A stretch of 64,000 nt of DNA. Source: Acidobacteria bacterium SCN 69-37 (GTDB lineage Bacteria; Acidobacteriota; Vicinamibacteria; Vicinamibacterales; SCN-69-37). Position numbers and translations under genes: made by a program. The stretch covers positions 350,359-414,358 of the forward strand of contig MEDJ01000019.1 of assembly GCA_001724025.1 (NCBI GenBank), read 5' to 3'. The notes under the pieces were generated by a model that was not told the origin of the DNA, made no database searches, and was given only the letters and a program-made list of their open reading frames with translations. Every line of letters begins with the position of its first letter. Position 1 is the stretch's first letter. Of the stretch, positions 58,318-64,000 are shown in pieces.

Positions 58318-58563
58318 TCAGTGGTAGGGACTCAACTTGTCAACAAGGCGCTCGAGCATCTCCCCGCGTGTCGTCGGAGCGTCGGTCCCGTCGAAACCGC
58401 CCTCGGCGAGCTCGGCGCCGACCAATTCCTGCATGCGCCGCAGCGAGGTGTCAGGAACCTCGAGCGACATATCGGCACGGCGAGCGCGATGCTCACGAAC
58501 ATCCTTCAATAGAATGCTGACGATCAACTCGAGTTCTTCAAGACTCAGCTTCAACCGAGCCAT
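58318..58563 (-). CDS. Orphan immunity-like small protein
   Basis: 81 residues, unrecognised. Helical and acidic at the end (MARLKLSLEELELIVSILLK). It starts 20 bp after the stop of a toxin-tail fragment (58584), the place where a cognate immunity gene is expected. Codon use is less GC-rich than in its neighbours, as is common for immunity genes. Confidence 0.5.
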   Translation of the reverse strand: MARLKLSLEELELIVSILLKDVREHRARRADMSLEVPDTSLRRMQELVGAELAEGGFDGTDAPTTRGEMLERLVDKLSPYH

Positions 58564-58583: not shown

Positions 58584-58900
58584 TTACGGATTCGGATTTC
58601 GTGGACGTCCCCATGCTGTACTGACATTGCCTCGACCATTCAGAACCACGGTCGCGTCCTTGCCTATGTATCTCACGACCCACCCCAGCCCGCAAACGTC
58701 GAGTTGGCGTCCGGCACGGCCGTCAGCGTCACGACGTGTGCAGCGGATAGCTCGCCCCGCACGGCACCGCCTGCGTCGTCGATCCGCCCGCACACGTCAG
58801 CCCGGCGGCCGTCACCGCGCCGGGGCGATCGATCGTCAGCGGTACGGGGGCGTGTCGCCCACGGCAGTCAACCGCGCGACGAGCGAGAAGTCATAGTTAC
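58584..58900 (-). pseudogene. Rhs fragment with frameshift, joined to a toxin tail
   Basis: 58676-58850 is a copy of the intact Rhs gene at about 60651-60838 (reading LTIDRPG, TCAGGSTTQAVPCGASYPLH). One base is missing near 58728, which gives an early TGA. Its 3' end is fused to a different coding tail, GKDATVVLNGRGNVSTAWGR, ending at 58584, which reads like the last strands of a secreted nuclease-type toxin. A 5' part (NYDFSLVARLTAVGDTP) lies at 58860-58900. Confidence 0.7.
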
Positions 58901-58933: not shown

Positions 58934-59212
58934 CTATGGCGGCGGTTCGTCAACTTCTCTCCAATCGGCTTCGACAACGCCGAATTCAAAGCTCGCTTGC
59001 GCCTTCGCTTCGTCGATACTCTCGTGCCAAGAATCTGCGACACAGACGCCTGCTCGGTCCAGCCGCAACAGGTCCACACCTCCATCCTGCTCGATGACTT
59101 CCAACGTCAAGGGAAGCTCGACCGGTATTTGGCTGATTTCACCGGTAAGTCGCTCGCCCTGCAAGTGCGTCACACGGCCAGTAATCGCACGAACATCCGC
59201 TCGCAGACGCAT
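58934..59212 (-). CDS. Small hypothetical protein in toxin-immunity region
   Basis: 92 residues, unrecognised. The product is soluble and acidic (HESIDEAKAQASFEFGVVEADW; EQDGGVDLLRLDRAG) and has no membrane segment. It lies 57 bp after the probable immunity gene at 59270. It may be a second immunity protein for another toxin tail or a passenger. Confidence 0.5.
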   Translation of the reverse strand: MRLRADVRAITGRVTHLQGERLTGEISQIPVELPLTLEVIEQDGGVDLLRLDRAGVCVADSWHESIDEAKAQASFEFGVVEADWREVDEPPP

Positions 59213-59269: not shown

Positions 59270-59494
59270 TCACTCGACTGCTCGAATCGCCGCCAAGATT
59301 GGTCCTTCCGCTGTTGAAAGCGGCTCACAAATCACCGCGCTTCCTGGTCCAAATTCCCAAGTCTCGGCCTCTTCGTCGTAGGCCTGATCGACGATCAGAT
59401 AGCAATTGTCGTGAGTATGTCTCGCTAGGACTGGCCGCCATACGTCAACGTCTTCGTTCAAGAGACGAACAAAGATCTTCATCTCCTTGCTCAT
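59270..59494 (-). CDS. Probable immunity protein of the E5-like Rhs toxin
   Basis: 74 residues (MSKEMKIFVRLLNEDVDVWRP, then AETWEFGPGSAVICE). Its ATG overlaps the toxin stop by 4 bp (ATGA at 59491-59494), so the two are translated together, the hallmark of a toxin-immunity pair. It does not resemble the colicin E5 immunity protein by eye. The family of the fold is unknown to me. Confidence 0.65.
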   Translation of the reverse strand: MSKEMKIFVRLLNEDVDVWRPVLARHTHDNCYLIVDQAYDEEAETWEFGPGSAVICEPLSTAEGPILAAIRAVE

Positions 59495-61614
59495 GGCAAG
59501 TCTCCGCTTCCTGGTCCATATCTAAAGCCGGGTCCGCCAACGTGAATGACGTCGCCGGCCACGTCATCCACAACCACCGATTTCCCCGTGCTTGGATGCA
59601 CGTATCGGGTGGCAGGATTGCCATTCGCCCTGTTGACGGCTCGAACCTGACGGCCACTGGCAATTGCTTCGTCGATCGCGCCATGAGTCCAGCCTCGCAG
59701 ACTCATTTGCCGGAGAATCTTCGGGCTGACTGGCATGATTGCCAGCGCCACTTCTCCTGAAGTACACCCGATGATGGCACAGTGGCCCAGCGCGATCCAC
59801 GGATTGACCAGACTGCCGACCTGGAGCCCGGTCGCCGCGAGCCACTCGAGCGCGGACAAGAACGGGGCCGTCCGTCGTGCCGTATCCCGGATGACCTCGC
59901 AGAGCGCGTCCCGGCAGGGCGGAGGCTCGGTGGGCGGCTCGTCATCCGGGGACGCCGTAGGCTCCGAAGGGGGCAAGGGGGGCGGCGTGCCGCTTGCAGG
60001 CACCGGCGTCCCGCCTCGACTGGCAGTACCACTGCCCTCGAAGAACCAGGCATAGCAGTCGCCGTTCGAGTTATACGCCATGCGCCACCCGTCCTCACCG
60101 GTCGGCGGACTGCCACACGCCATTCCGCTCGCGCTCCCGACGTTCCAGTAGGCCCAACCGTTGCCGCTACCGGGAGGAACATATTCCAACGAGCCATGGA
60201 CAATCATGGTTTCGGTACCGCAGTACGCGGCCTCGCACGCGGCCAAACCGGTCGGGTCCGCCCACTTGAACGGGTTATTCCGCGCATACGCGTACCGGTT
60301 CCACTGCTGCGGATCGGTCATTGCCGCGCCGACGTGCAGCGGGTCCACCTGCGTGAAGCGTCCCCACGTCTGCCGGTAGTAGCGCGCGTCGAAGTAGTGC
60401 AGGGCCGTTTCCGGGTCGAGCGGCTTGCCGGCGAAGCGGTTCGGGTCGCCGGTGAGTGGCGCCACGTCTTCGCCGAAAGGCCGGTAGTCGTGCCGCTCCA
60501 CCACGGCGCCGACCTCGTCCGTGATCGCCCGCACCGAGCCGACGGGATCCGTATGGTAGTACCGCAACGCCACCGTGTCCGGCAGCTTCGTGAAGGTCGC
60601 CACCACGAAGCGCGCCGTCGATAGCGTCACCTGGCACGTCCCGGTGCCGGTACACGACCCACCCCAGCCCGCAAACGTCGAGTTGGCGTCCGGGGCGGCG
60701 GTCAGCGTCACCACCGTGTGCAGCGGATAGCTGGCTCCGCACGGTACCGCCTGTGTCGTCGAGCCGCCCACACACGTCAGCCCGGTCGCGGTCACGCCGC
60801 CCGTGCCCGTGCCGGGGCGATCGATCGTCAGCGGGGCCGTCGAAACATCGACATACGCCGTCTTCCAGCGCCAGTCCCACACGTTGGACGACGGACTGAA
60901 GGCGGCGGCGCCGATATAGTGCGCCCCGGGGGCGAGCCCCGCCAGCGACGCGGTGTAGCCCGAGTACCGGAATCGCTCGCCGTGACTGGCCGCGATGTCC
61001 GCGCGGTTGGCGCCGTAGGTGGCCTGCCCCAGCATGATCGCCACCTGTCCGGATCCGGGGTTCGGGTGCGTCCACAGGTTGATCTGCGTCACCCCCGTGC
61101 CGCTGGGCGCGTTCGCATCCAGCGCCCACCCCTGGACGGCGACTGGGGAAGCCACCGAGGCGCCTGGGCCGGGCCGTTCCAGCGTGTGCTCCGGCTGCGC
61201 CTGCACGGTGAGGAAGTGCCCCCACTGGTACCACGCCCCGTTGATCGTGCTGTGCGCGTGCACCTGGAGATAGTAGCTCCCGGGCGTCAGGCCGGTCTTC
61301 GTGAACGTGTAGCCGGTGTTCAGATATTGCGCGCCATAGACGGCCGACACGTCCGGTCGCGCCAGCCCATATGTCGCAGCGCCCCAGAACGTACACACCG
61401 TCGTACACCCGTAGATGTGCACCGCGTCGATCCCCGTACCGGTGGTCGGTCCGTGCAACGCCCAGCCCGTGATCGTGAACGGCTGCATCACGGTCGCGTT
61501 CGGTCCGGGGCTGCTGATGGCGCCCCCGACGCCTTGCGCGTAGGCCGGGCCGGCGCTCAGCCCGAACCACGCCAGCGCGCAGAGTCCGAGACGTCCGATC
61601 GCTTGAGCGCTCAT
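59491..61614 (-). CDS. Secreted Rhs-core protein with C-terminal colicin-E5-like RNase domain
   Basis: 707 residues. Signal peptide (LCALAWFGLSAGPAYAQG). Two ~110-residue repeats of a GWALHG/GWALDA Ig-like domain, then a bacterial-repeat domain (STFAGWGGSCTGTGTC), then the Rhs core (RYYHTDPVGSVRAITDEVG, FDARYYRQTWGRFTQVDPL, NPFKWADPTGL) at about residues 365-480. The last ~70 residues (RGWTHGAIDEAI, NPATRYVHPSTGKSVVVDD) match the colicin E5 RNase domain, which cuts tRNAs for Tyr, His, Asn and Asp at the anticodon. It lacks the long YD-repeat shell, which lies in the gene at 62556. The start overlaps the previous stop (ATGA). Confidence 0.85.
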   Translation of the reverse strand: MSAQAIGRLGLCALAWFGLSAGPAYAQGVGGAISSPGPNATVMQPFTITGWALHGPTTGTGIDAVHIYGCTTVCTFWGAATYGLARPDVSAVYGAQYLNTGYTFTKTGLTPGSYYLQVHAHSTINGAWYQWGHFLTVQAQPEHTLERPGPGASVASPVAVQGWALDANAPSGTGVTQINLWTHPNPGSGQVAIMLGQATYGANRADIAASHGERFRYSGYTASLAGLAPGAHYIGAAAFSPSSNVWDWRWKTAYVDVSTAPLTIDRPGTGTGGVTATGLTCVGGSTTQAVPCGASYPLHTVVTLTAAPDANSTFAGWGGSCTGTGTCQVTLSTARFVVATFTKLPDTVALRYYHTDPVGSVRAITDEVGAVVERHDYRPFGEDVAPLTGDPNRFAGKPLDPETALHYFDARYYRQTWGRFTQVDPLHVGAAMTDPQQWNRYAYARNNPFKWADPTGLAACEAAYCGTETMIVHGSLEYVPPGSGNGWAYWNVGSASGMACGSPPTGEDGWRMAYNSNGDCYAWFFEGSGTASRGGTPVPASGTPPPLPPSEPTASPDDEPPTEPPPCRDALCEVIRDTARRTAPFLSALEWLAATGLQVGSLVNPWIALGHCAIIGCTSGEVALAIMPVSPKILRQMSLRGWTHGAIDEAIASGRQVRAVNRANGNPATRYVHPSTGKSVVVDDVAGDVIHVGGPGFRYGPGSGDLP

Positions 61615-62546
61615 CGCGCCTCCTCGGACGTCACGGCGATCAGCCGGCCGCCGAAGGGCTCGTATTCGAGCTGATAGACGATCGGGGGGCCGTCGGGCCC
61701 GGCGACCGTCGCCGTCGTCACCCATGCGGGCCGGCTGCGAAACACCGGCCCGCCGGCGGCCGTGGTGCCGGCGGCGAGCCAGGCGAAGCGGGCCGGCGCG
61801 GTCTCCCCGAGGCTGAAGCCTCGGGGCTCCGACGAGGGCGCCGACTCGGGGCCTCGGGGTTCCGAAGAAGGGGACGCGGACGATCGTGGCGACGCCGCGT
61901 TCGCCAGATGTTCACTTACGGCCCTGGCCATCGTCGCGACTGCGGCCGGCGCCGGCGCAAAGGTGCTCGCCACGCCACGCGGCGCAAGCCACGCGTCGGC
62001 GTCGCTCTCGTGCCAGCGCGGGTTCGTCAGCAGTTGCATCTGCAGGGCGAGCGCCTCCGCCTCGTGGACCAGCGGGCCGTACGCGTCGTACCGCCGCAGG
62101 CGCGTGTCCGTGTCGAACTCGAAGCGGGCCGTCAGGATGGGCGCGGGGAGAGGCGTCTCCCCGAGGCTGAAGCCTCGGGGCTCCGAAGAGACGCCTCGGG
62201 GCTCCGACGGGACGCCCCGGGGCTCCGGCAGAGGCGATTCGGGCGCCGGACGGCCCGAGTCCAATGGTGTCGCGTCCGGCGTGGCGCGATCGACGACGCT
62301 GACCAGCACGGCCTCACCCTCGCGGCGCACGGTCAGTTCCAACTCGCGCCCCATCAGGTCGGGATAGGCCGCCCAGAGAAATGCCTGGGCCGCCAAGACC
62401 TCGGCCGGCACGGTCGGCCCATCCGCTGCCGGACGGGCCGCGTCGCTCGAGTCTTGTGGCCCACGAGCCGCCAGCGGCACGAACCCCAGCCCAGCCAGCG
62501 TCCCCACACACACGGCCATCCGCAACATTCGCATCGTCGTCGACAT
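61611..62546 (-). CDS. Secreted hypothetical protein carrying in-frame REP-derived segments
   Basis: 311 residues. Signal peptide (MAVCVGTLAGLGFVPLAARG). Two linkers consist of SEPRGFSLGE-type units (DNA at 62159-62231 and 61805-61868), direct readings of the palindromic repeat. The rest has no family I recognise (AAQAFLWAAYPDLMGREL; LEYEPFGGRLIAVTSEEAR). It lies between the YD-repeat gene (9-bp gap) and the toxin gene (4-bp overlap), so it probably serves the Rhs system, perhaps as an adaptor. Confidence 0.7.
   Translation of the reverse strand: MSTTMRMLRMAVCVGTLAGLGFVPLAARGPQDSSDAARPAADGPTVPAEVLAAQAFLWAAYPDLMGRELELTVRREGEAVLVSVVDRATPDATPLDSGRPAPESPLPEPRGVPSEPRGVSSEPRGFSLGETPLPAPILTARFEFDTDTRLRRYDAYGPLVHEAEALALQMQLLTNPRWHESDADAWLAPRGVASTFAPAPAAVATMARAVSEHLANAASPRSSASPSSEPRGPESAPSSEPRGFSLGETAPARFAWLAAGTTAAGGPVFRSRPAWVTTATVAGPDGPPIVYQLEYEPFGGRLIAVTSEEAR
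61805..61826. repeat. REP-like palindrome inside a gene, copy 7
   Basis: Perfect arms CCCCGAGGCT/AGCCTCGGGG with a GA spacer, followed by CTCCGACG. A half copy lies at about 61850-61868. Read in frame as SEPRGFSLGE. Confidence 0.85.
62159..62231. repeat. REP-like palindrome plus two half copies inside a gene, copy 8
   Basis: The full palindrome is 62159-62180; half copies ending CTCCGACGG and CTCCGGCAG follow. They encode EPRGVPSEPRGVSSEPRG and the first GFSLGE. Confidence 0.85.
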
Positions 62547-62555
62547 GGGGCGCTC

Positions 62556-63998
62556 CTACTGGACGAGGAGAGTGATGGGCGCCGACGAGACGGCCCGGCC
62601 ATCGGTGGCGACGACCCGCGCCAGAAGGACCGTCGTCGCCGGGACCAGGTGCGTCGCCAGCGTCACCGCGTACGCGCCGCCCGTCGCCTGCCCGACGAAG
62701 AGCCCGCCCGCGTAGTACTCGACCCGCGCCACCGTGACGCCGGGCCCCACGCTCACCGTCGCGGTCAACTGCACCGACTGTTGGCGCGGCACGGTCGTGT
62801 TATTCGTGGGCGTGACGATCGCCACGCTCAAGGGTGGAGGCGCCACGGGACTGGGCGCGAAGGACGCCAGGAGCTGCGATCCCAGATAGACGTACTCGCG
62901 GGCAATCTGCGGCGTGCTGCCGACGACGGTGTATTCGGCGAGGGGCCCGCTGCCCGGGCCATAGAGATACAGGTGCGGGGTGCCGTTCGGCTCGATCCGC
63001 ACGGCCCGCATCCCCCCCCCGCCGTAGCGGTACTGCGTCGTCTGGCCACCGAGCGTGGACGTCTTCAACATGTGATGGGCGTCGTAGGTGTAGCTCACCC
63101 CGCTCGGATCGCTCAGCAGGCTCCCGACGGGGTCGTACGTGAACGACCCACTCGTGCCCCCGGACAACGACATCAGGCGCCGCGTGTTCACGTCGTAGGT
63201 GAAATTGATCGTCCCCTCGCTCAGGCGGTCGCCGCCCGGCGTGTAGGTGTACGACGTGGCGCCGAACCCCGTCACCGTCGAGAGTCGATCGAGGAGGTCG
63301 TAGGTGTACTGCGACGAATACCCCGATCCGCGCGCATCGGTGGCGCTCCGCACGTTGCTGACGTCGTCATACGCGTACGTCAGCGACAGCGGGCCGTTCA
63401 CCCACGTCGCGGGCCGCTGCCGGACGTCCGGCGTGACCGACGCCACCTGCCCGTTTCCGAAGGTATACGACGCCAGTGATCCGTCGCCGCGGTAGACGAA
63501 GGCATGGGCGAGGACCGTGACCGGCCCGCCCGCGATCTGCGTGCGCACCGCCGTCAGCCGCTGCTGCGCGTCGTAGTCGTAGTGGACCTTGCGGCCCGAC
63601 ACCGGATAGTCGACGCGAATCAGGTTGTCGTACCCGTCGTACGCAAACGTCTGCACGAACGGGTGCCCGGCAATGACGTCCGTGCGCTGCGTCACCCGGC
63701 TGGCCGTGTCGTACTGGAGCGTGGTCTGCACGGTCGCGTTGGTGACCGTCGCGACCCGCCCCGCGCTGTCATAGGTCGTCGTCACGTCATCGGCCGTGCC
63801 CGGCGCGTTCGCGACCGTCACCTGATAATCGGCGTTGTAGGCATAGGTGATCGTCCGCAGCGCATCCTGTTCCTGCAGCACGTTGCCCAGGCCGTCGTAC
63901 TGCCAGGCCGTGGTCCCCGACTCGGGCTGGATCAGCGTCATCACGTGGCCCTGCGTGTCGTAGGCCCACGTGCGGCCGACCGTGTCCCCGTCGCGCCA
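62556..63998 (-). CDS. Rhs YD-repeat protein, 5' end outside window
   Basis: At least 480 residues; the frame is open to the window edge. Many YD repeats (YDSAGRVATV, YDTASRVTQR, YDYDAQQRLTAV, YDLLDRLSTV) form the Rhs shell. It ends with Rhs-core-like ALYLYGPGSGPLAEYTV and LGSQLLASFAP, then an Ig-like domain (VTVARVEYYAGGLFVGQATGG) and no toxin. It is therefore unusual: the toxin-bearing core is a separate gene downstream in the same operon. Confidence 0.88.
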   Translation of the reverse strand, partial: WRDGDTVGRTWAYDTQGHVMTLIQPESGTTAWQYDGLGNVLQEQDALRTITYAYNADYQVTVANAPGTADDVTTTYDSAGRVATVTNATVQTTLQYDTASRVTQRTDVIAGHPFVQTFAYDGYDNLIRVDYPVSGRKVHYDYDAQQRLTAVRTQIAGGPVTVLAHAFVYRGDGSLASYTFGNGQVASVTPDVRQRPATWVNGPLSLTYAYDDVSNVRSATDARGSGYSSQYTYDLLDRLSTVTGFGATSYTYTPGGDRLSEGTINFTYDVNTRRLMSLSGGTSGSFTYDPVGSLLSDPSGVSYTYDAHHMLKTSTLGGQTTQYRYGGGGMRAVRIEPNGTPHLYLYGPGSGPLAEYTVVGSTPQIAREYVYLGSQLLASFAPSPVAPPPLSVAIVTPTNNTTVPRQQSVQLTATVSVGPGVTVARVEYYAGGLFVGQATGGAYAVTLATHLVPATTVLLARVVATDGRAVSSAPITLLVQ

Positions 63999-64000
63999 TG

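Follow-up and report, generated by a model that had tools for sequence, protein, structure and literature searches.

The locus analysed here, a split Rhs polymorphic toxin system, lies in a window of 64,000 nucleotides (contig C19, positions 350359-414358) from a 25-contig metagenome-assembled genome (MAG), referred to as G000, of a soil bacterium of the Vicinamibacteria (Acidobacteriota). According to the list of open reading frames (ORFs), the minus strand carries in order a YD-repeat shell gene, a gene for a 311-aa protein, a gene for a 707-aa core-toxin chain and a 74-aa gene. The genes are translationally coupled. The shell gene stop codon TAG is followed by 9 nt and the ATG of the 311-aa gene, and ATGA overlaps join the 311-aa to the 707-aa gene and the 707-aa to the 74-aa gene. 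ORFs and junctions agree with the original prediction, which had described separate genes for a shell, a secreted middle protein and a core-toxin protein joined by 4-bp overlaps and a 9-bp gap. The split between shell and core lies within the single contig C19, well away from its end. The features of the locus are the following.

62556..63998, minus strand: 3' portion of the YD-repeat shell gene, which measures 979 aa as far as the contig reaches
62634..62828, minus strand: Big_7 Ig-like domain at the shell C terminus (Pfam, 1.6e-9)
62547..62555, minus strand: 9-nt gap between the shell and 311-aa genes, with GGAG after the stop codon
61611..62546, minus strand: 311-aa protein with a signal peptide (ORF list, Pfam/NCBIfam)
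59491..61614, minus strand: core-toxin chain of 707 aa, starting inside the ATGA overlap with the 311-aa gene
61537..61614, minus strand: predicted Sec signal peptide MSAQAIGRLGLCALAWFGLSAGPAYA (sequence and hydropathy scan)
60586..60768, minus strand: divergent InlB B-repeat domain directly before the core (Pfam, 2.1e-5)
60244..60570, minus strand: complete Rhs core, RYYHTDPVGSVR to PFKWADPTG, which comprises the C-terminal plug and the aspartyl protease
60343..60345, minus strand: first protease aspartate D424, invariant in the aligned split cores
60256..60258, minus strand: second protease aspartate D453, invariant in the aligned split cores
59536..59724, minus strand: colicin-E5-like tRNase domain (Pfam, 1.2e-5; colicin E5 chains at 0.02)
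59270..59494, minus strand: 74-aa gene, candidate immunity gene, in ATGA overlap with the toxin gene

The shell chain ends in the order last YD motif EYVYLGSQLLASF, Ig domain, stop codon. It matches RHS_repeat (1.5e-20) as well as Big_7, and the YD repeats were confirmed in the 979-aa chain (RHS_repeat, 1.7e-21). Neither an Rhs core nor a toxin was found in this chain in the Pfam/NCBIfam scan, in agreement with the earlier description of a shell that stops in an Ig-like domain without a toxin. The proposed extension towards the shell start was achieved in part: the gene runs off the end of contig C19 (base 415853), which lies 1495 bases outside the window, and its 5' end is missing there. Candidate 5' ends of this shell type, a 94.7% identical pair with signal peptides and DUF6531, are located at the ends of contigs C3 (L258) and C5 (L259). 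With both copies truncated where their contigs stop, two shells of this kind are probably encoded in the genome.

The core-toxin chain was read as 707 aa from its own ATG at 61614, the 744-aa ORF being only an alternative start. Rhs_assc_core (TIGR03696) matches residues 377-457 with 3.7e-20, and the sequence NPFKWADPTGL fits the cleavage motif of the Rhs aspartyl protease, PxxxxDPxGL (PMC8765631). The C-terminal domain scores 26 bits against Colicin_E5 (PF12106), a thin margin over the cut-off of 25, and its KIxxQMxxRGWT stretch aligns weakly to colicin E5 (E 0.02); its presumed target would be tRNA in competing bacteria. Pfam and the annotation of the locus place no YD repeat in this chain. 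The complete core and the E5-like domain of the original prediction were recovered, but its two Ig-like repeats in the toxin chain received no Pfam call. The parts by which Rhs polymorphic toxins are recognized, namely YD repeats, a core with the protease motif and a variable C-terminal toxin, are all present at the locus, but not in one polypeptide.

The break always lies just before the core, the part that in solved Rhs structures forms the C-terminal plug and the aspartyl protease. The split core equals residues 1179-1289 of RhsA (7q97), a region that winds into the cocoon, closes it at one end and houses the protease (PMC8765631). Where the structure of a single-chain Rhs protein has been solved, only about 10-30 residues separate the end of the shell profile from the beginning of the core profile; in 8qja the shell profile runs to 1746 and the core profile begins at 1768, and in 9pt5 the shell profile likewise ends shortly before the core. 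Because of this short distance, the shell and core chains together cover a complete Rhs protein in sequence.

Core and shell searches across 193 genomes of the class returned, on the one hand, single-chain proteins 1300-3900 aa long and, on the other, cores located in short frames. A shell that stops before the core, here called headless, is contiguous with a downstream gene for a signal peptide and core in G000, G129, G017, G190 and G062, representing five families of the class. Two tandem core genes lie behind the shell in G017, where the junction measures 8 nt, and ATGA junctions are found in G190 and G062. In G129 a gene for a 207-aa pilin-like protein, which had no Pfam match, lies between the shell and core genes (L050:8675-9298). 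In G082 and G110 the shell and core are at contig ends and their connection could not be traced. All seven class genomes with a headless shell also hold a split core (hypergeometric p ~1e-10, a figure to which adjacency adds), and headless shells of this type were found only in such genomes. Beyond the YD part the shells carry Ig, FG-GAP, Calx-beta or TSP3 domains. In nearly all the loci with this arrangement, inside and outside the class, the mature core chain begins a few residues ahead of YYHxDxxGSVR. Among the split proteins of the class the core starts a few residues after the signal peptide except in the window and G062 chains, which have Ig-type domains before it, and in G190, which has a linker. 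The class core search turned up no Rhs core in 13 genomes from this genus and family, among which the locus is therefore accessory.

Proteins composed of a signal peptide and a core also occur in Patescibacteria, Peregrinibacteria, Anaerolineaceae, Nitrospirota and gammaproteobacterial MAGs, with the limits that MAG taxonomy is uncertain and that several of the MAGs belong to a single sample series (OFTM). In a Patescibacteria MAG (L147) a 1930-aa shell is followed after 9 nt by a core gene, and in a gammaproteobacterial MAG (L194) a shell frame of 3674 aa is followed after 66 nt by one. The order is changed in a Nitrospirota MAG (L137), where two core genes precede a 1231-aa shell. Like TcB, the L147 shell has SpvB and FG-GAP domains. 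In a Patescibacteria MAG a split core is followed by a LysM domain (L162:7863-8984). No description of this split was found in the literature, as covered by open-licence papers.

Paralogous split cores are under purifying selection (dN/dS 0.17-0.30). Their signal and core portions are 75-93% identical, and most of the C-terminal ends are unrelated; the toxin domains found on split cores are E5, Tox-REase-7 and Tox-REase-3. On a tree of 122 cores the split label is clustered, needing 6 changes compared with 25 when labels were shuffled, and at least 2 of the changes are forced by well-supported branches. The split therefore probably arose more than once, but the number of origins is not fixed because many forks of the tree are open. 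One genome, G076, has a single chain, a 2134-aa frame with shell, an insert of about 590 aa (InlB-like and FG-GAP), core and toxin, and its core groups with that of the window (SH-aLRT 86); it may be a re-fusion or an ancestral form.

Among known systems, the closest likeness is to the TcB/TcC pair, where YenB packages YenC1, YenC2 and YenC3, made at distinct loci. There, the Rhs shell is built of two chains, the second of which holds core, protease and variable toxin, and several second chains, also from distant loci, serve one shell (PMC11067744); the two chains here are complementary in sequence and would fit such a scheme. TcC differs in having several hundred shell residues before the core (YenC2: YD match 223-527, core 598-689), whereas the second chain in the window has no YD repeat and no large shell portion before the core. 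The Sec signals on both chains are another difference. Single-chain Rhs proteins (T6SS RhsA, Tse5, WapA-type) share the YD shell, the PxxxxDPxG core, the two aspartates and the C-terminal toxin (PMC8765631), but keep them in one polypeptide, whereas here the break falls directly ahead of the core and each half is exported on its own. Bacterial teneurin-like proteins (TLP, 9pt5/9ifo), the best PDB match of the shell profile, have a Sec-exported shell around a toxin and an immunity gene downstream (PMC13018210), much as proposed here, but consist of one chain. Orphan Rhs/CDI cassettes share a conserved core part, a variable toxin and arrays by the main gene (PMC3482391); they are, however, described as incomplete gene fragments (PMC11067744), whereas the split cores are complete secreted proteins.

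The locus is best read as a Rhs polymorphic toxin with two components and a mode of action like that of TcB/TcC, a reading to which we assign a probability of about 0.62. How the two chains may be assembled, cleaved and delivered is inferred. The first gene would yield an exported YD shell that ends just short of the core, with an Ig-type domain in its place, and the second a separately exported chain with the plug/protease core and the toxin behind it. After export, the core chain would most likely seal the open shell so that the toxin ends up inside, as in TcB/TcC; the core would close the shell and cut the toxin free. Different core-toxin genes would share one shell design, the core-toxin chains being interchangeable. 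Of the two mechanisms proposed earlier, loading of a shell with a separately synthesized toxin chain is thus the better supported, through the TcB/TcC precedent, with binding presumed, and delivery of the toxin alone is the rival. It is an even call whether these loci represent an unnamed but widespread class of Rhs toxins with two components, in which a secreted headless shell can take one of several plug-protease-toxin chains that are themselves secreted independently, assembly taking place outside the cytoplasm, and which had multiple origins by a break at the same place.

Several observations weigh against a shell closed by a second chain. Split cores occur in G091, G074, G145 and G050, for which the shell search came up without a shell of this type, as well as in G546 and G547, which have a single-chain shell. 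In G082 a split core on contig C58 lies beside nadC, away from any shell gene. The AlphaFold model of the toxin chain is useless (pLDDT 38.5), and that of a single-chain relative reached pLDDT 50 and was confident only in the YD part, the YD rows of its alignment having partly slid onto the core. Foldseek with this confident YD part returned only Rhs, Tc and teneurin folds.

On account of the shell-less genomes, a stand-alone secreted toxin, with the neighbouring YD protein acting independently at the cell surface, for example as an adhesin, keeps a minor share of the probability, about one chance in five. Arrays of split cores, such as the at least seven signal-peptide-core-toxin genes on three contigs of G091 (L054, L055, L076), and the Ig, FG-GAP, Calx-beta and TSP3 tails of the shells would fit it. 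A free toxin would, however, have no need of a complete core with both aspartates kept under purifying selection, and the confinement of headless shells to genomes with split cores and the translational coupling also speak for the two-component toxin. Still less probable is a cassette reservoir, in which core-toxin genes mainly recombine into full-length Rhs genes and are expressed only occasionally while headless shells are recipients awaiting a new end. This draws on the arrays and relics, on the orphan-cassette model (PMC3482391) and on the full-length Rhs genes plus separate cassettes of G546 and G547, but the split cores, unlike classical orphan fragments, possess start codons, signal peptides and coupled junctions, and what follows the last YD motif in the headless shells is additional folded domains rather than a truncated core. 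The split is a real, recurring design and not a broken gene: a single ancestral gene cut by stops or an assembly error, for which the G076 frame is the one single-gene relative, is very improbable and was rejected in view of the new signal peptide, the whole extra gene between the chains, the purifying selection, the position of the junction inside C19 and the same break with independent junctions in many genomes. The refuting condition named in the original prediction, relatives that hold the frames in a single gene, thus applies to G076 alone, and in view of the many split relatives it does not mark the window as a broken copy.

The original prediction had cast the middle protein as an adaptor. 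The 311-aa protein belongs to no known family in Pfam/NCBIfam, has no relative in the 193 genomes or in the genome contigs, and showed no significant link to the small proteins preceding the G091 cassettes. At the split loci of G017, G190, G062 and L147 the core gene comes straight after the shell gene; because the middle gene is dispensable there, a conserved adaptor is unsupported and was rejected. The gene holds in-frame copies of a genome-wide palindromic repeat, read as PRGFSLGE. This interspersed repeat, CCCCGAGGCTGAAGCCTCGGGG, lies at window positions 61801-61830, 62155-62230 and 1911-1950, and a search with window 62000-64000 hit 53 places in the genome, nearly all matching it. Several G091 core genes are preceded by a coupled gene of 65-155 aa ending in LTG[KR]L[LI]AWHVGGER.

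The coupling of the downstream gene was borne out by its ATGA overlap, but its proposed immunity role is weak. Judged by position alone, the 74-aa gene might be the immunity gene; its family is widespread, yet nowhere else adjoins an E5-like toxin, and co-occurrence did not bear out a recurrent pairing with such toxins. Two other E5-like toxins are followed by related proteins of 143 and 122 aa (L135:1057-1488, L151:7060-7428), a better candidate E5 immunity family. Further downstream are the following features.

58934..59212, minus strand: 92-aa ORF, possible left-over immunity gene (ORF list)
58674..58842, minus strand: decayed 169-bp relic of the InlB-repeat region of the toxin gene
58318..58563, minus strand: 81-aa ORF, possible left-over immunity gene (ORF list)

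The relic is 85% identical in DNA to 60653-60834, with indels, and together with the two small ORFs it would be as expected from a displaced earlier toxin cassette. Outside the window, the same genome encodes one more Rhs core, which is incomplete and lies in a frame of 144 aa (C19:194898-195023).

Known Rhs toxins seal the toxin within one chain, or within two in the Tc toxins. If closure of a shell after export by a small plug-toxin chain is possible, payloads could be exchanged without recombination, encapsulation outside the cytoplasm would become testable with two short genes, and there would be an explanation for the numerous short, secreted 'RHS repeat-associated core domain' proteins of environmental genomes.
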